Made by a program: the position numbers and the translations under genes. The notes below the pieces were generated by a model. That model ran no database searches, was not told the origin of the DNA, and saw only the letters and a program-made list of their open reading frames with translations. Shown here piece after piece: positions 7,137-18,699 of a DNA stretch of 64,000 nt (position 1 is the stretch's first letter; each line of letters opens with the position of its first letter). This DNA is from Sporolactobacillus vineae DSM 21990 = SL153 (GTDB lineage: Bacteria > Bacillota > Bacilli > Bacillales > Sporolactobacillaceae): positions 248,001-312,000 of the forward strand of contig NZ_KB899044.1 in the NCBI RefSeq assembly GCF_000377985.1. Direction: 5' to 3'.

Positions 7137-7318
7137 TATCTCCGATAAATGTGAACATTATGTGACGTTTTTATTTTAATCACGTTTATTTTGATTTACA
7201 AGTGTTTTGATTCTTATTCCTTTATCAGTTGCTATTTAATTTTCAAAAAATTATAATCTCTTTATCAACCCTATGTATTCGCTTACATTCAATCAGACTG
7301 AAGAAGAAGGCGATGTTG

Positions 7319-10819: not shown

Positions 10820-11560
10820 TCAGGCAAGATAGGCACTGCGCACCTGCTGGTTGCTGAGCAGATCCTGGCAGGGCCCTTCGAGCACAATATCTCCGGTCTG
10901 GATGACATAGCCGCGGTTCGCAATCTGAAGTGCCTGGAACGCATTCTGCTCAACGAGTAAAATGGTCATCCCCTCCTGATTCATCTGCTGAATGATGTCG
11001 AAGATCTGCTCGACGATAATCGGTGCAAGCCCCATTGAAGGTTCATCGAGCATCAGCAGTTTCGGTTTCATCATCAGGGCACGGCCCATCGCCAGCATCT
11101 GCTGTTCGCCGCCGCTCATGGTTCCGCCCTGCTGATCCAGCCGCTCTTTCAGCCGTGGAAAGAAACTGAAAACGCGCTCCATCCGTTCTGTTATCACCTT
11201 TTTATTTTTTTCCAGAAACGCGCCGATCCGCAGATTTTCCCTAACCGTCAGTCTTGGGAAAATCCGGCGGCCTTCCGGAACCTGGGCAATACCGAGAGCA
11301 GCATTGATATGTGCCGGGTTTTGGGTAATCTCTTTACCCTCAAAATGAATCGATCCGGTCTTCGGCGTGACCAGCCCGCTGATCGATTTCAGCGTCGTTG
11401 ATTTTCCGGCACCATTGCTTCCGATCAGTGTCACGATCTCACCCTGATCGACAAACAGGCTGATGCCATTAAGCGCCTGAATTTTTCCATAAAAGCTCGC
11501 CACCCCGCTAAGCTCAAGGTAGTGTTTCGCCGTGGTTTCCCCCGTCTTCGTATCAGCCAC
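10820..11560 (-). CDS. livF: Branched-chain amino acid ABC importer, ATPase LivF
   Basis: One of the two ATPases of the HAAT-type importer that powers uptake of Leu/Ile/Val. It has Walker A GSNGAGKST, signature MSGGEQQMLAMGRALM and Walker B LLMLDEPSMGLAP. GTG 11560 is chosen: GGAGG lies 9 nt upstream and the length (246 residues) fits LivF; a longer frame would run 20 codons further into livG. The start overlaps the livG end by 8 bp, indicating translational coupling. Confidence 0.92.
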   Translation of the reverse strand: MADTKTGETTAKHYLELSGVASFYGKIQALNGISLFVDQGEIVTLIGSNGAGKSTTLKSISGLVTPKTGSIHFEGKEITQNPAHINAALGIAQVPEGRRIFPRLTVRENLRIGAFLEKNKKVITERMERVFSFFPRLKERLDQQGGTMSGGEQQMLAMGRALMMKPKLLMLDEPSMGLAPIIVEQIFDIIQQMNQEGMTILLVEQNAFQALQIANRGYVIQTGDIVLEGPCQDLLSNQQVRSAYLA

Positions 11561-12329
11561 GCTGTGTCGCCTCCTTCCCGAGATAAGCTTCAATAACCCG
11601 CTGATTATTACGAATCTCATCCGGTTTTCCTTCAGCGATCAGCTCGCCATGATCCAGAACATAGAGATAATCGGAGATCTTCATGACGAGTTTCATGTCA
11701 TGCTCAATAAGGATGATGGTGACATCAAGCCGATGGCGCATATCATGAATCAGATCGGTCAGCTGCCGGGTTTCCTTAGGGTTCATTCCGGCAGCCGGTT
11801 CGTCAAGAAGGAGAATCTTCGGTTTCGCTGCAATCGCCCGGCCGATTTCCAGGCGACGCTGGGCACCATAAGGAAGATTTCCCGCACTCTCATTGACAAA
11901 TTCTTCGAGTCCCACATACTGCAAGATTTTATATGCTTCGACCTTCGCTGCTTCTTCCTCCCGAGTCACCTCTGGAAAATGCAGCAGTGTACCGATCCAG
12001 TGGCCTTTCAGACGCTGGTGCATGCCGACCAGCACATTTTCAATGACCGTCTGTTCATTGAAGAGACGAATATTCTGGAAAGTCCGGCTGATCCCAAAAT
12101 GACAGACCTGGTGCGGCTTGAGACCGACCAGTGATTTTCCGTTTAACAGGATATCTCCTGAGGTCGGCCGGTAAACGGCAGTAATCATATTGAAAAAAGT
12201 CGTTTTACCTGCTCCATTTGGGCCGATCACTGCCGTGATTGAATTTTTCTCCACGTTCATTGAAACATCTCTGGTCGCCATCAGACCGCCGAACTTCTTC
12301 GTCAGGTTCTTGACTTCGAGAATATTCAT
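11553..12329 (-). CDS. livG: Branched-chain amino acid ABC importer, ATPase LivG
   Basis: The second ATPase of the importer, 258 residues. It carries Walker A GPNGAGKTT, the LivG-type long insert (residues about 90-130), signature LPYGAQRRLEIGRAIA, Walker B ILLLDEPAAGMNP and the ETRQLTDLI helix typical of LivG. Its ATG shares a base with the livM stop (TAATG) and has GGAGGG upstream. Confidence 0.93.
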   Translation of the reverse strand: MNILEVKNLTKKFGGLMATRDVSMNVEKNSITAVIGPNGAGKTTFFNMITAVYRPTSGDILLNGKSLVGLKPHQVCHFGISRTFQNIRLFNEQTVIENVLVGMHQRLKGHWIGTLLHFPEVTREEEAAKVEAYKILQYVGLEEFVNESAGNLPYGAQRRLEIGRAIAAKPKILLLDEPAAGMNPKETRQLTDLIHDMRHRLDVTIILIEHDMKLVMKISDYLYVLDHGELIAEGKPDEIRNNQRVIEAYLGKEATQRG

Positions 12330-13618
12330 TAGTGTGTTCCCTCCGCCTCAGGGTGCTCTTCGTATTGACTTGTTTTTACAGCTGCCTCAGCTTTAAGATG
12401 TGCCGCATCGACTTTTTTGTTTTTATAAGGAATTAACCCTTTCGTTCGATAGAGTGCGAAAACAACGAGCAGGATACCGAAGATAAACCGCTGCATTTTT
12501 GCAGGAGACAAAGCGTCAGGAACACTGACAACGCCGGATGCGCTGAGCTGAGTCAGCCAGGTCGACAGACTGGTCAGCACCTGGTTGTTCAGAATAATGA
12601 CCACTGCAGCGCCCAGAATGACGCCGGGAATGCTGCCCATACCGCCAAGAATAACCATGACGAGAACGATCGTTGATTCAAGGTAAGTAAAACTGGACGC
12701 ATCGATATACATTTGTTTCGCAGCAAATACCGAGCCCATCATTCCGGAAAATGAGGCACCGATGGCAAAGGCGGCCAGCTTTGTTTTGACCAGGGGAATA
12801 CCAGATGCCTGAGCCGCAATTTCGTTGTCCCGGACTGCTTTCCAGGCACGCCCGAGTTTCGAGTGTTCCAGACGTGTCGCCACATAAATCGCAAGCATAA
12901 AAATCACAAGTGCAATGTAATAGAACTGACTGGGCTGCCCGATCGGAATGCCGAAAAAGCTTGGCGGCTCGATTGACGGGATACCCATCGAACCATTCGT
13001 AATATTGATCGGGTGATCCATATTGTTAAAAACAATTCGGATGATTTCCCCGAACCCCAGAGTGACGATAGCCAGATAGTCGCCGCGGACCCGAAGAACC
13101 GGAATGCCAAGCAGAATGCCGAAGACGGCAGCGATGATTGCTCCGATAGGTATGAATAACCAGAAAGCATCACCGGGAACCGGAAAGTGGCCGAACGGCA
13201 TGAACTTATTCGCCTGGGTACTCCCGAAGATACCGTATGTATACGCACCAACGGCAAAGAAGGCAATAAACCCAAGGTCCAGCAGGCCGGCAAAACCGAC
13301 AACAATATTCAGCCCGAGTGCCATGGCGACATAGATCAGTACGAGCGTTCCGACGTCCATGAAGGACTGATAGGAGGAACCCTGGCTGGCGGCAAAGGGA
13401 ACCAGAACCGCGATGATGAGCAAGCCGAGTGCCCATTTAATTCTTACATTTAGTTTCAGATAATAAAGAATTAATATGGAAAGCAGCAGAACAAGAAAGG
13501 CGATCACTGAATCTGACAGAAGAAACAATCCAAAGGCGGTGATCAGTACATACGCGGCAAAAAAGATAATCTGTGCCTTTGTGCTGTCCGCAAATTTATG
13601 AAATGCATTTTTAATCAT
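12329..13618 (-). CDS. livM: Branched-chain amino acid ABC importer, permease LivM
   Basis: A 429-residue inner-membrane permease with about ten predicted helices. The family motif GLNIVVGFAGLLDLGFIAFFAVGAY is clear, as is the cytoplasmic RLEHSKLGRAWKAVRDNEIAAQASG coupling loop that docks the ATPases. It has an N-terminal three-helix extension like long LivM proteins and a C-terminal charged tail. It starts 7 bp after livH. Confidence 0.93.
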   Translation of the reverse strand: MIKNAFHKFADSTKAQIIFFAAYVLITAFGLFLLSDSVIAFLVLLLSILILYYLKLNVRIKWALGLLIIAVLVPFAASQGSSYQSFMDVGTLVLIYVAMALGLNIVVGFAGLLDLGFIAFFAVGAYTYGIFGSTQANKFMPFGHFPVPGDAFWLFIPIGAIIAAVFGILLGIPVLRVRGDYLAIVTLGFGEIIRIVFNNMDHPINITNGSMGIPSIEPPSFFGIPIGQPSQFYYIALVIFMLAIYVATRLEHSKLGRAWKAVRDNEIAAQASGIPLVKTKLAAFAIGASFSGMMGSVFAAKQMYIDASSFTYLESTIVLVMVILGGMGSIPGVILGAAVVIILNNQVLTSLSTWLTQLSASGVVSVPDALSPAKMQRFIFGILLVVFALYRTKGLIPYKNKKVDAAHLKAEAAVKTSQYEEHPEAEGTH

Positions 13619-13625
13619 AAGCTGA

Positions 13626-14651
13626 TCACACCTTCTCTATCGTGGCTTTTCCAAACAGGCCTTCCGGTTTAAAGATCAGCACCAGGATCAAAATGATAAA
13701 AGCGAAAACGTCTTTATATTCCGAACCCATTGCGCCATGGGTAATGGTCGACAGGTTGGCTGCGGCGAACATCTCAAGCAGGCCGAGCAGGATCCCTCCG
13801 AACATGGCCCCGCGAATGTTCCCGATACCGCCCAGAACTGCGGCCGTAAATGCCTTGATTCCCAGAATAAAACCGATGTAAGGATCAACAGTTCCATACT
13901 GAATCAGGAATAATACGCCGGTCGCGCCGCCCAATGCGGAACCGATGAAGAAGGTAACGGAAATCACGCGATTGACATTGATCGACATCAGCGACGCAGT
14001 CTCGCGATCCTGAGCAACAGCGCGCATCGCAATGCCCCACTTCGTCTTGCTGACAAACAGATCCAGGGAAATGAGCATGATTATCGTCACGATAGAAACA
14101 ACAAGAAACGAGCCCTGGAATGTAGCGTTATTGAAAAATGGAAAAACGGAATGAAAATCAATCGTAAATTTATGCTGGAACAACGGCCGTGTTGTAATGA
14201 TATAATTACCGGTTGTCCAATCTGCGATGAAACGTACCGCATCTTCAAGGATAAATGAAATTCCGATTGAAGTAATCAGTGCGATCAGCTTTGGGGCATT
14301 CCGCTTTCGCAGCGGCCTGTAGGCCACCCGCTCAATGCCGACGCCCATTACTCCGGTGATCAGAGCGGCAACAAGGATCATGATCATGAACAGGACCATC
14401 GTCGGTGCTGAAGACATGAATCCCATGCTCATTACCGTAAATAAAACACCTGCACCGACAAATGAACCGGTCATGAAAATATCGCCGTGTGCGAAGTTGA
14501 TCAGTTCGAGAATGCCATAGACCATGGTATAGCCGATAGCGACAACGGCGTAGACGAAACCAAGCGTCAGGCCGTCGACCAGGACCTGGGGCAAAAGTTG
14601 AATAATCTGCGACAAAGGAGCCACCTCTTTCTTTTTTCTGACTGGCTTCAC
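13626..14651 (-). CDS. livH: Branched-chain amino acid ABC importer, permease LivH
   Basis: The partner permease, 341 residues from GTG 14651 (AGGAG 5 nt before). An alternative TTG at 14615, with GAGGTGG before it, would give a start more like other LivH proteins (SQIIQLLPQVLVDGLTLG); the two cannot be separated by eye. Visible: GLTLGFVYAVVAIGYTMVYGILELINFAHGD, the classic LivH opening, and AMRAVAQDRETASLMSINV as the ATPase-coupling loop. Confidence 0.92.
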   Translation of the reverse strand: MKPVRKKKEVAPLSQIIQLLPQVLVDGLTLGFVYAVVAIGYTMVYGILELINFAHGDIFMTGSFVGAGVLFTVMSMGFMSSAPTMVLFMIMILVAALITGVMGVGIERVAYRPLRKRNAPKLIALITSIGISFILEDAVRFIADWTTGNYIITTRPLFQHKFTIDFHSVFPFFNNATFQGSFLVVSIVTIIMLISLDLFVSKTKWGIAMRAVAQDRETASLMSINVNRVISVTFFIGSALGGATGVLFLIQYGTVDPYIGFILGIKAFTAAVLGGIGNIRGAMFGGILLGLLEMFAAANLSTITHGAMGSEYKDVFAFIILILVLIFKPEGLFGKATIEKV

Positions 14652-14682
14652 GATTTCTCCTGAATGATGAGGCCAGATGTTC

Positions 14683-14718
14683 TAAAAGGGTATAGCCTGA
14701 TTTCTCCATACCCTTTTA
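14683..14718 (-). terminator. Intercistronic hairpin between livJ and livH
   Basis: An 11-bp perfect stem (TAAAAGGGTAT/ATACCCTTTTA) with a 14-nt loop between the binding-protein gene and the permease genes of the same operon. The T run is short, so it looks like a leaky terminator or an mRNA-stabilising 3' end rather than a full stop. Confidence 0.65.
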
Positions 14719-14812
14719 GATATTGCCCGGCTCAATGCAGCATCCAACTCGTGATACTGCCATTTTGCAGAACCGGTTGTTTAACCGGGCCTGTCAGTAC
14801 GGGCGCATGATT

Positions 14813-15997
14813 TTATTTTTTTGTGATTTCGGTCTGTTCTGTCGCAGGATAAACTGCCTTGTCAAATTTGTAGATGTAGATCTTGGCAAACTTGTTATCG
14901 CCCTTGCCGTCGAAAGCAACCTTCGTGGCGATGCCGTCATAATCCTGGATGCCGCGTACCGCAGTCGCTACTGCCTGACGTGTCGGAAGTTTGCCGCCGT
15001 TCTTGTCAATGGCTTTGCTGATACCTTCAAGGAGCACCGCTGCACTGTCGTAGCCATATGCAGAGTAACCTTCAACATTCTTTTTGAATTTTGCTTTATA
15101 TGCTGCTGCGAACTTACGGCCTTTTTCCGTTTTGGTAACATCGCCGACAACCGTCGAATAATAGACGCCCTTGATTCCACTGCCGGCGATCTGAACGCTC
15201 GTCGACGAATCCATGCCGTCACCGCCCATGACCGGAATCGTTAATCCCTGGGCACGGGCCTGTTTCACAATCAGCGCACCTTCAGCATAAACGCCGCCGA
15301 AGTAGATCAGGTCCGGTTTCGCGGCCGCCGCTTTGCTGACTACGCCGCTGAAATCTTTTTCACCGACTGTGATCCCTTCATAGCCGAGGATGGTTGCGCC
15401 GAGTTTTTTGGCTTCATCACGGAAAGCTGCGGCAAGTCCGGAACCATATGGGGTTTTATCCTGGATGATGAAGATCTTTTTAACGCCGAGCGTTTTAATC
15501 GCATAATTTGCACCGGCCGGCCCCTGGAAATCATCACGGGCACAAACCCGGTTGACTGTTGACAGTTCGCGGTCGGTCACTGCGGTTGCCGTTGCTGCCG
15601 GGGATACCATCGACAGGTTGTTTTTCTGGTATACCTGGGACGACGGAATCGCAACGCCTGAATTCAGGTGTCCGACAACTGCAAGCACTGCATTATCGGC
15701 GGAAATGGCCTGAGCGTTGGAAACACCCTTCTTTGGATCACCCATATCGTCGTATGGAGAGAGCACTAATTTATAGCCCTTCTTGTTAAATGCTTTTTGC
15801 TGATCATCAAGAGCAAGCTGTGCACCATTTTTGATCGCTTCGCCAAGTGTGGCACTGCCGCCCGAGAGCGGAGACTGAGTCGCAATTTTGATTACTTTCA
15901 GTCCGCCGGCGGACCCGCCGGATTTTCCGCAGCCGGCAATCAGGCCGACCGCCAATGCGAGTATAGCTAGCAGTGGGATCATTCTCTTTAATCTCAT
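14813..15997 (-). CDS. livJ: Branched-chain amino acid-binding lipoprotein (LivJ type)
   Basis: A periplasmic-binding-fold type I receptor of 394 residues that would be tethered to the outer face of the membrane and deliver amino acids to LivHM. ATG 15997 follows GGGGAGGG and begins a lipoprotein signal peptide: basic RLKR, a hydrophobic stretch, then LIAGC with the lipidated Cys at residue 23. The start of the mature part, KIATQSPLSGGSATLGEAIKNGAQLAL, is typical of LivJ/LivK. First gene of the operon, about 120 nt behind its promoter. Exact ligand preference cannot be told. Confidence 0.9.
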   Translation of the reverse strand: MRLKRMIPLLAILALAVGLIAGCGKSGGSAGGLKVIKIATQSPLSGGSATLGEAIKNGAQLALDDQQKAFNKKGYKLVLSPYDDMGDPKKGVSNAQAISADNAVLAVVGHLNSGVAIPSSQVYQKNNLSMVSPAATATAVTDRELSTVNRVCARDDFQGPAGANYAIKTLGVKKIFIIQDKTPYGSGLAAAFRDEAKKLGATILGYEGITVGEKDFSGVVSKAAAAKPDLIYFGGVYAEGALIVKQARAQGLTIPVMGGDGMDSSTSVQIAGSGIKGVYYSTVVGDVTKTEKGRKFAAAYKAKFKKNVEGYSAYGYDSAAVLLEGISKAIDKNGGKLPTRQAVATAVRGIQDYDGIATKVAFDGKGDNKFAKIYIYKFDKAVYPATEQTEITKK

Positions 15998-16121
15998 ATT
16001 TACCCTCCCCTTTTTGGAAAACAATACAGCAAAAAGCATAAATACCATTTTTATGTAGGCTGCATCACGCTCCCCGTAATTTCTATGAATTATCTGAGTT
16101 TATTGATAACTCTTAAAAGTT

Positions 16122-16150
16122 ATAATACTTTAAAATATAATAAGTGTCAG
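16122..16150 (-). promoter_or_regulatory. Sigma-A promoter of the liv operon
   Basis: On the minus strand CTGACA (16145-16150) and TATTAT (16122-16127) with a 17-bp spacer; each hexamer matches consensus at 5 of 6 positions. The predicted start is near 16115, leaving a leader of about 118 nt before livJ. Confidence 0.75.
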
Positions 16151-16156
16151 CAGATA

Positions 16157-16173
16157 TGTCAGAAACTCTGACA
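16157..16173 (-). promoter_or_regulatory. TnrA/GlnR-type nitrogen box
   Basis: The 17-bp dyad TGTCAGAAACTCTGACA fits TGTNA-N7-TNACA exactly. Its centre is about 50 bp upstream of the predicted liv start site, the position from which TnrA activates in Bacillus. GlnR binds the same sequence, so which protein acts is inferred from position only. Confidence 0.7.
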
Positions 16174-16190
16174 TAAAAAATATTTATCAC

Positions 16191-16229
16191 TTTCGTCTCC
16201 GTCACTGGCTTCATTTTCCGGAGACGAAA
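16191..16229 (-). terminator. Second hairpin behind the chemoreceptor gene
   Basis: An 11-bp stem TTTCGTCTCCG/CGGAGACGAAA with a 17-nt loop, one base beyond the main terminator. It gives a tandem stop and shields the liv promoter from read-through. Confidence 0.55.
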
Positions 16230-16230
16230 A

Positions 16231-16267
16231 CCCCCGGAGCTGGAATTTTATTTTCCAGCTCCGGGGG
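16231..16267 (-). terminator. Main terminator of the chemoreceptor gene
   Basis: A perfect 15-bp stem (CCCCCGGAGCTGGAA with its complement) with a 7-nt loop, then TTTT on the minus strand, 20 bp after the stop codon. Confidence 0.9.
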
Positions 16268-16286: not shown

Positions 16287-18461
16287 TCAGACGACTTTAA
16301 ATGCGGATACCATACGTTGCAGATTCTCCGAAACATAATCCAGATTTCCGGTGATCTGCTTCAGACGGGTGATTTCTTCTGCAACATCATTGAGCAGATC
16401 CATCGATGCTTCACTGCTGCTGGCATTTTTCGCTGTTTTCTCCTTGATTACATCAGCCGCACGATTGATACGTATCACCACATCGCCAACGTCATGGCTT
16501 TCCTGTATGGTTATCTCTTTGAGCCGCTCCATTTTCTCGGTGATCTCTTTAATATTTTCAGAAATATAGTGAAATGTGTCGATCGTATTTTTAATGTTCC
16601 TGCTGGAAATCCTCACTTTCTCGTCCGTTCTCCGAATATCTTCCAGAGTCCGTTTCGTTTCATTCTGGATATTTTCAACGAGATGGCGGACAGAACCTGT
16701 GGCCTCTTCAGTCTGGTCGGCCAGTCTCGAAACCTCACTGGCAACCACGGAAAAACCTCTTCCCGCTTCCCCTGCCCGTGATGCTTCAATCGCCGCATTC
16801 AGCGACAGCATCTGTGTCTGCTCGCTGATCCCGGAGATCGTTGTGACAGCCTCGGTAATCGCTTCGGAGTGCTTGTGGAGCTGATCAATATGTGCCATAG
16901 TGCCGCCCATTGTCTTTTCCAGTTCACCAATCTGGTCCAGTGTTTCTGAAGATGTGAGATTTGCTTTTCTCGTCCGGCCGCTGGTGTCTTCCGTTTTTTC
17001 AGTGACCTGATGGATCAGCAGCCCCATCTCCTTTATCGCTTCGGAGAGATCATTAAACTGACTGCGGGTATCCTGAAAAATGGCATTCTGCTGCTTTGCG
17101 GTCGCAACCAGGCCATTTACCGTACCGGCGACTGTTTTCATGCTTTCCGAAAGGTGGCCCGTCATCCCGTTAACCGTCGTTGCCGCACTTTTCGACGCTT
17201 TCGCAGACCTTCCCACCCGTTTGACCATCGTCATTTGATTATTGATAAATTTATTGAACCAGCGGGAAAGTTCACCTATTTCGTCATAGGAATTTTTGTT
17301 CACGCGAGTGGTCAGGTCTCCCTCTCCCTCAGCAACCTGATGCAGAATATCGACCGTTCGGTTTAACGGTGTGACAACGAGCTTCCGGACCGTCAGACAC
17401 ACATACAGGGATAAGATCAGCCAGGTGGCGGCCGAACAGATCAAGCCCCAGAACATTGAGAAACGGAAACAGATCCCGTTAACGGCAACAGCTGCGGCGG
17501 CCGAAAGGGAATAGTAGAGCGGGATGCGCAGATTCAGACTCCTGAAATTGTAAATTTCCGCAATATCCCCTTCGCACATCATGCCCCAGACCTCATCCGA
17601 AAAAGGTGGATGGATCAATGTTCCTTTGCCGCCGACAAGAATGTGCCGGTAGTCCGGATAGCCCGGCCAGACATCGAGATTGCTTCCGTTGGTGATCGTC
17701 TTGTTGACACCCTGGTGAAGATCCCCGGTCTTCGGATCTGTGAACCGGATCTCAAATTCAGTATGCTTATCCACTCTGACGACGCCCCATCGGCCTGTCC
17801 TGACACCATCTTTCAAATTGTCGCCGAGCGTAAACGTATTATCTTCAAAACGGCTCCGTGAAATCGCCGTTCCGGGAAGGATATTGCGTGCCGACTGAAC
17901 CATAAACAGATAATTGTCGCCCGATTCTTTATACACGTGTGTATCCTCATCCTGAATGACATTGCTCAGCGTATCGTTCAGCACACGTCCCAGAAAAATC
18001 GTCTTTCGTCCTTCTGCGTTCTCGCCGGGAAGGGAAAACATCAGGGTCACTTCGTCATGAAAATGCAGGTTCGAACAGTCGATATCCAGTGTCCGCAGAT
18101 CCTCATAGGGTCCGTACATCAGACGCTTGTTCCGGATACCTCTCGAATAATTCGGCAAATCGGACATTTTCGCTCCGATATGTCTGATGCATGTACTATG
18201 CCGGACCGTACCCGTTTCGTCCAGCAGAATAAACTCAATGAAATCGCTGCTCTCATCCAGTTGCCGGTGCATCATTTTCTCTGTCTCGCTGCTGTCCGAG
18301 TAACTTTCGACGATACGGCTCACATTTTCAAGTTCTACCCATCGGTCACGGAACCAATTGTCCAGTGCTTTCTTTCTCCCGTTGGAGATGCCTTCAAAAA
18401 CCTGCTCGTGATGCTGTTTCAACTTTCTGTTCAGTGCATACATCATATGTACATGCTGCAT
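16287..18461 (-). CDS. Methyl-accepting chemotaxis protein with N-terminal soluble sensor
   Basis: A 724-residue chemoreceptor. ATG 18461 has GGAGGGG 8 nt upstream. Residues 1-310 hold no membrane helix or signal peptide but resemble a Cache/PAS-like sensor (FIEFILLDETGTVRHS; later LFMVQS). Two adjacent helices follow (about 312-332 and 335-357), then HAMP (TVRKLVVTPLNRTVDIL to about 410) and a signalling domain with the conserved tip SEQTQMLSLNAAIEASRAGEAGRGFSVVASEV. Standard receptors have a helix before the sensor; here the sensor appears cytoplasmic. No CheW-binding pentapeptide tether is seen. Stand-alone gene with strong terminators. Confidence 0.88.
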   Translation of the reverse strand: MQHVHMMYALNRKLKQHHEQVFEGISNGRKKALDNWFRDRWVELENVSRIVESYSDSSETEKMMHRQLDESSDFIEFILLDETGTVRHSTCIRHIGAKMSDLPNYSRGIRNKRLMYGPYEDLRTLDIDCSNLHFHDEVTLMFSLPGENAEGRKTIFLGRVLNDTLSNVIQDEDTHVYKESGDNYLFMVQSARNILPGTAISRSRFEDNTFTLGDNLKDGVRTGRWGVVRVDKHTEFEIRFTDPKTGDLHQGVNKTITNGSNLDVWPGYPDYRHILVGGKGTLIHPPFSDEVWGMMCEGDIAEIYNFRSLNLRIPLYYSLSAAAAVAVNGICFRFSMFWGLICSAATWLILSLYVCLTVRKLVVTPLNRTVDILHQVAEGEGDLTTRVNKNSYDEIGELSRWFNKFINNQMTMVKRVGRSAKASKSAATTVNGMTGHLSESMKTVAGTVNGLVATAKQQNAIFQDTRSQFNDLSEAIKEMGLLIHQVTEKTEDTSGRTRKANLTSSETLDQIGELEKTMGGTMAHIDQLHKHSEAITEAVTTISGISEQTQMLSLNAAIEASRAGEAGRGFSVVASEVSRLADQTEEATGSVRHLVENIQNETKRTLEDIRRTDEKVRISSRNIKNTIDTFHYISENIKEITEKMERLKEITIQESHDVGDVVIRINRAADVIKEKTAKNASSSEASMDLLNDVAEEITRLKQITGNLDYVSENLQRMVSAFKVV

Positions 18462-18699
18462 GGTAAAGACCCCTCCCCAGGACATGCCGAATTCTGATTT
18501 TTACGCTCTGTAAGAGACAGAATTTAGATTCATTATAATGGATCGTCAGAATAATCATTTATTTTTACAAAAATCCGGGATAAAATTTTTTCAAGGCATG
18601 ATTTGAAATTATCTTGTGACAGATTCAATACTGGTGCAAGCAAAGAAAGAAGATTATAATTAAGATAAAACCAAGTTAACCGTGGGGAGTACTGAACTT

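Follow-up and report, generated by a model that had tools for sequence, protein, structure and literature searches.

A predicted TnrA/GlnR operator at the promoter of the branched-chain amino acid importer operon livJHMGF in Sporolactobacillus vineae

Sporolactobacillus is used for lactic acid production, where the nitrogen feed matters. In the stretch of S. vineae DNA analysed here (the window, 64,000 nucleotides), a dyad resembling the operator of the nitrogen regulators TnrA and GlnR stands before an operon for branched-chain amino acid import. A sequence-only reading had proposed that it places this uptake under nitrogen control, different from the CodY-based control usually stressed for such genes. 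Is the dyad a working operator, and which regulator would use it?

The liv operon and its promoter

Downstream of the promoter, on the minus strand, the genes follow in the order livJ (ATG at 15997), livH, livM, livG and livF. The substrate-binding lipoprotein LivJ (14813–15997) has a Peripla_BP_6 domain; its best NCBIfam match is a branched-chain binding protein (214.2 bits, cut-off 477), and it is 81% identical to LivJ of Sporolactobacillus shoreae. The permeases match best to LivH (13626–14651; 239.7 bits, cut-off 379) and LivM (12329–13618; 273.6 bits, cut-off 366), the ATPases to LivG (11553–12329; 324.4 bits, cut-off 362) and LivF (10820–11620; 296.9 bits, cut-off 441). The LivF match begins at residue 32, and the true start of livF is probably internal to the called reading frame. 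Branched-chain amino acid models are thus the best for each of the five subunits, all scores lying under the curated cut-offs. The nitrogen-controlled urea transporter UrtABCDE resembles liv importers; we rejected this identity, as every subunit scores higher on branched-chain models. Between livJ and livH lies a gap of 161 bp (14652–14812) with hairpin-forming sequence by reading, which may tune how much binding protein is made relative to permease; a terminator scan of the gap gave a terminator-like site on the opposite strand only.

The livJ promoter is of the sigma-A type, with 10 of 12 hexamer matches: a −35 element CTGACA (16150–16145, minus strand), a 17-bp spacer and a −10 element TATTAT (16127–16122, minus strand). 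These elements predict a transcription start at 16115 on the minus strand, 7 bp after the −10, and hence a leader of about 118 nt. The predicted TnrA/GlnR box, TGTCAGAAACTCTGACA (16157–16173, no strand assigned), ends 6 bp before the −35 element and consists of two 7-bp arms flanking 3 bp. TnrA-activated promoters carry their box upstream of the −35, with its centre near −50. The livJ promoter has this layout, the box centre (16165) falling at about −50 from the predicted start. The dyad, its place directly 5′ of a good promoter and the activation spacing are all as the earlier reading had described them. By reading, the box deviates once, at a central W, from the longer TnrA consensus TGTNANAWWWTNTNACA (excerpts of PMC4475385).

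The box is the sole match to TGTNA-N7-TNACA in the whole window. By itself it is not significant, because 0.63 matches are expected by chance in the window and 48 of 100 shuffles contain at least one. Further upstream, between the promoter and a gene that is chemotaxis-receptor-like by reading only (16287–18485), two inverted repeats can be read at 16194–16267. They are perhaps the terminator of that gene; a terminator scan of the window reported none at this place.

Conservation of the box and of its distance to the −10 element

We found 135 livJ relatives, kept 80 and scanned 300 bp upstream of each. The Sporolactobacillus/Terrilactibacillus set counts 16 loci, the window included, and the other relatives 63; the loci are not independent, several close relatives being among them, and two second livJ copies (L039 and L040) were left out of the box and CodY counts. 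An exact box precedes livJ in 13 of the 16 loci (reversed pattern, 0; shuffle mean, 0.12). The remaining three have a degenerate box at the corresponding position, with one mismatch in S. shoreae, the nearest named relative found, one in S. terrae and two in S. inulinus. Among the other relatives 14 of 63 have an exact box (reversed pattern, 2; shuffles, 0.3) and 49 have none. As for the second copies, L040 has no box, and L039 shows one with a single mismatch that stands as far from a TATTAT as in the first copies.

Across the 16 loci the start of the box varies from −171 to −195 relative to the start codon, while a −10 element (at least 4/6) stands 29 nt after the box in every one. With the 13 exact boxes, offset 29 yields 12 loci with a −10 of at least 5/6, and the next best offset, 19, yields 6. 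The distant loci supply 18 boxes, and in two of these the start codon comes too soon for a score at that offset. Eight of the 16 usable ones have a −10 (at least 5/6) exactly 29 nt downstream, and every other offset from 10 to 54 has at most one case. These eight belong to Bacillus sp. 03113, Niallia circulans, Peribacillus (four loci, two from one species), Priestia koreensis and Rummeliibacillus suwonensis. In Paenibacillus none of four scorable boxes lies at the 29-nt distance; the two boxes too near the start codon are from this genus as well.

The hexamer at the −35 place has 2 to 5 matches to TTGACA over the 16 loci (partly manual counts), 4 to 5 in the 13 exact-box loci and 2 to 5 in the eight distant loci; S. 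terrae has GTGTTT (2/6) and S. inulinus GTGATT (3/6) at the fixed place (manual count). A constant spacing from site to promoter, combined with weak −35 hexamers, is the arrangement that an activator in contact with RNA polymerase would require. Conservation in related liv promoters, on which the earlier proposal hung, extends to both the box and its promoter distance.

The alignment of liv leaders contains one more conserved element, a G-run followed by TACATAA (16050–16075, minus strand). By alignment reading it occurs in all 16 first-copy leaders of the Sporolactobacillus/Terrilactibacillus set (15 of 16 in the strict GGGG form) and is missing from L039 and L040; genome-wide it has 3 matches, against 6 for the reversed control. 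RNAalifold predicted no pair on the 16 leaders, and Rfam gave matches below gathering scores only on the promoter and leader. A short upstream reading frame ending ACA-TAA at this element was tried and rejected: the frame is not preserved in all species, and in most, by alignment reading, the G-run abuts the start codon.

Regulators and further boxes in the genome

The genome (2.86 Mb) encodes tnrA, glnR (by reading) and codY. TnrA is a 110-residue protein scoring 163.7 bits on the NCBIfam TnrA model (cut-off 140), and it exceeds this cut-off in 23 of 26 genomes of the family, among them every one of the 15 from the genus. Another MerR-type protein, with 128 residues when counted from an internal ATG, reaches 84.9 bits on the same model; its gene follows one that is ynbB-like by reading, and no GlnR-specific model is among its NCBIfam scan matches. 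We read it as GlnR. The regulator genes on which the earlier proposal depended are present, tnrA over its family cut-off and glnR by reading.

Genome-wide, TGTNA-N7-TNACA occurs 48 times against 35 for the reversed pattern, only modestly above control. Outside the window there are 47 boxes, 32 intergenic and 15 within called reading frames; with liv, 33 are intergenic. Twenty of these 33 border nitrogen-related genes by a reading of Pfam and NCBIfam names, a label that is an unblinded judgement without a background rate. The sequence-only reading had suggested a scan for further boxes, as at glnA and amtB; boxes stand beside tnrA (three boxes), glnR and amtB. Other neighbours are pucR/ald, three purine/cytosine permeases, an amidohydrolase, two C-N hydrolases, three peptide transporter parts, an amino acid binding protein, an aspartase with an AsnC-type regulator, two BcaP-like permeases and liv itself.

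Among 49 box-gene pairs of this genome, liv excluded, the −10 shows no peak at offset 29, where there are 3 cases, the same as at offsets 32 and 41. At amtB the exact box (L148:2001-2031) does not take the −50 position of the liv box; TATAAT follows it after 8 bp, and it covers the −35 region. Upstream of a 5′-deoxyadenosine deaminase-like gene (L158:1671-2017), at 330 bp, a box, TTGACA and TATTAT recur at exactly the liv spacing; this box falls inside a called 129-codon reading frame.

Two of the three cases at offset 29 are the BcaP-like permeases, encoded in tandem outside the window (L139:474-3713), with NCBIfam BcaP scores of 673.5 and 688.3 that fall narrowly short of the cut-off of 690. 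Both carry a box matching at 13 of 13 positions, and in both TATAAT follows at precisely 29 nt, the liv spacing. Their relatives in the genus at 67% identity or more comprise 17 loci, of which 16 starts were parsed (those of L182 and L192 look wrong). An exact box precedes 11 of the 16; just 5, which come from three genomes, retain the −50 spacing. No close CodY site was seen at the two permeases, the best having 4 mismatches at each. We found no BrnQ (PF05525) here; across the genus, 6 of 15 genomes contain a match.

Proposed control, alternatives and known systems

We propose that the dyad at 16157–16173 serves as an operator for TnrA and GlnR. When nitrogen is limiting, feedback-inhibited glutamine synthetase would release TnrA, which would bind at about −50, just 5′ of the livJ −35 element, and activate livJHMGF; branched-chain amino acids would then be taken up as a nitrogen source. 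GlnR is probably able to use the same operator, which would add some repression under nitrogen excess. We give this reading, with activation by TnrA and probable repression by GlnR, a probability of roughly 0.78. As a prediction from sequence, control of branched-chain amino acid uptake by nitrogen has good support in the conservation of the box, its fixed promoter distance and the tnrA and glnR genes, and the earlier proposal is to that extent upheld. We infer TnrA binding and the direction of its effect, the preference for activation over GlnR repression coming from the position of the site only. The signal is presumed by analogy with B. subtilis, and a role of the importer in supplying nitrogen is a presumption too.

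A chance dyad is hardly credible: half of the window shuffles or nearly so hold a match and the genome total is modest, but a functionless sequence would not be expected to keep its box and its promoter distance across species, and the comparison had already made this explanation improbable. Alternatively, GlnR, bound just 5′ of the −35, could repress liv under nitrogen excess without any activation by TnrA. The two proteins share the motif, a glnR-like gene is present, and in B. subtilis a GlnR site directly precedes the −35 of the glnRA promoter (excerpts of PMC6191146). A single exact box, the fixed distance and the weak −35 hexamers of the relatives suit an activator better in our positional judgement, and we hold repression by GlnR alone to be unlikely.

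Slightly less probable still, in our estimate, is that CodY is the main regulator of liv and that TnrA binds with little effect. CodY, whose gene is present, recognises the motif AATTTTCWGAAAATT and can also bind sites that match it less well. At a limit of 2 mismatches, CodY-like sites precede livJ in 16 of the 63 other loci (0.97 expected) and in 2 of the 16 Sporolactobacillus group loci (0.23 expected). With at most 4 mismatches, a site between −75 and −18 is found in 8 of these 16 (0.9 expected), always at −51 to −57. In that interval there is none in the window, S. shoreae or Sporolactobacillus sp. THM7-7, where the best has 6 mismatches. Within 300 bp upstream, the best site at this liv promoter differs from the CodY motif at 5 positions and lies partly over the TnrA box. 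The genome holds 24 CodY-like sites with at most 2 mismatches (control, 6), none of them at liv. As CodY tolerates poor matches, an unrecognised site is weak evidence of absence. A CodY-like site with 1 mismatch, among the top two of the genome, lies elsewhere in the window, at 7238–7252, near the starts of transporter-like and FAD oxidoreductase-like genes (names by reading).

CodY has been assigned to liv elsewhere: five Streptococcus species have livKHMGF among the predicted CcpA and CodY targets (PMC3616900), and for pneumococcal liv negative regulation by CodY has been described (PMC10503754). A precedent for binding with little effect is the B. subtilis branched-chain permease gene braB, where TnrA and GlnR bind in vivo and expression is unchanged in either mutant under the conditions tested (excerpts of PMC4475385 and PMC5569456). 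A bound box therefore need not mean regulation, and this precedent shifts a little weight from the preferred reading, activation by TnrA, to CodY. Since CodY-like sites are frequent at liv in the relatives and none is recognisable here, dual control by TnrA and CodY looks common among the relatives, with the TnrA site alone recognisable in S. vineae. The contrast with CodY control drawn by the earlier reading consequently stands for this promoter and goes too far for its relatives.

Taking the liv and BcaP-like loci together, we advance tentatively, at rather less than even odds, that branched-chain amino acid import as a whole may have moved from CodY to TnrA in this lineage, serving as a nitrogen source and not paced by CodY. 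TnrA boxes at liv and at both BcaP-like genes, the lack of a close CodY site and the absence of BrnQ would fit import that is out of step with the CodY signal.

In the open-access literature searched, nothing we read places liv or bcaP of Bacilli under TnrA or GlnR. In the predicted GlnR regulon of Bacilli (PMC3412718) the motif is alike, and its members pucR, pucI, opp/dpp, amtB and aspA resemble the box-adjacent genes here; no word beginning with 'liv' occurs in the main text of that comparison. The Streptococcus livKHMGF operons share the type of transporter, and the predicted regulators there are CcpA and CodY, not GlnR or TnrA (excerpts of PMC3616900).

For B. subtilis, the branched-chain transporters tabulated in a review are bcaP, braB and brnQ alone (PMC6123439). 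TnrA does act on or bind at branched-chain amino acid genes there, repressing ilv-leu and binding at braB without a measured effect on expression (excerpts of PMC4475385 and PMC5569456), whereas activation is proposed here. The TnrA-activated promoters of amtB-glnK, gabP and glnQHMP have in common with liv the 17-bp consensus, the regulator family and the uptake of a nitrogen source (excerpts of PMC4475385); the difference lies in the target, here a LIV-I type ABC importer. If the proposal is true, such an importer joins the TnrA targets, and its spacing between box and promoter is found again in several Bacillaceae genera. The proposal also suggests that control of branched-chain uptake switches between nitrogen (TnrA) and amino acids (CodY) from lineage to lineage. 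Compared with these systems, livJHMGF would be an addition to the targets of a known regulator and not a new kind of system.
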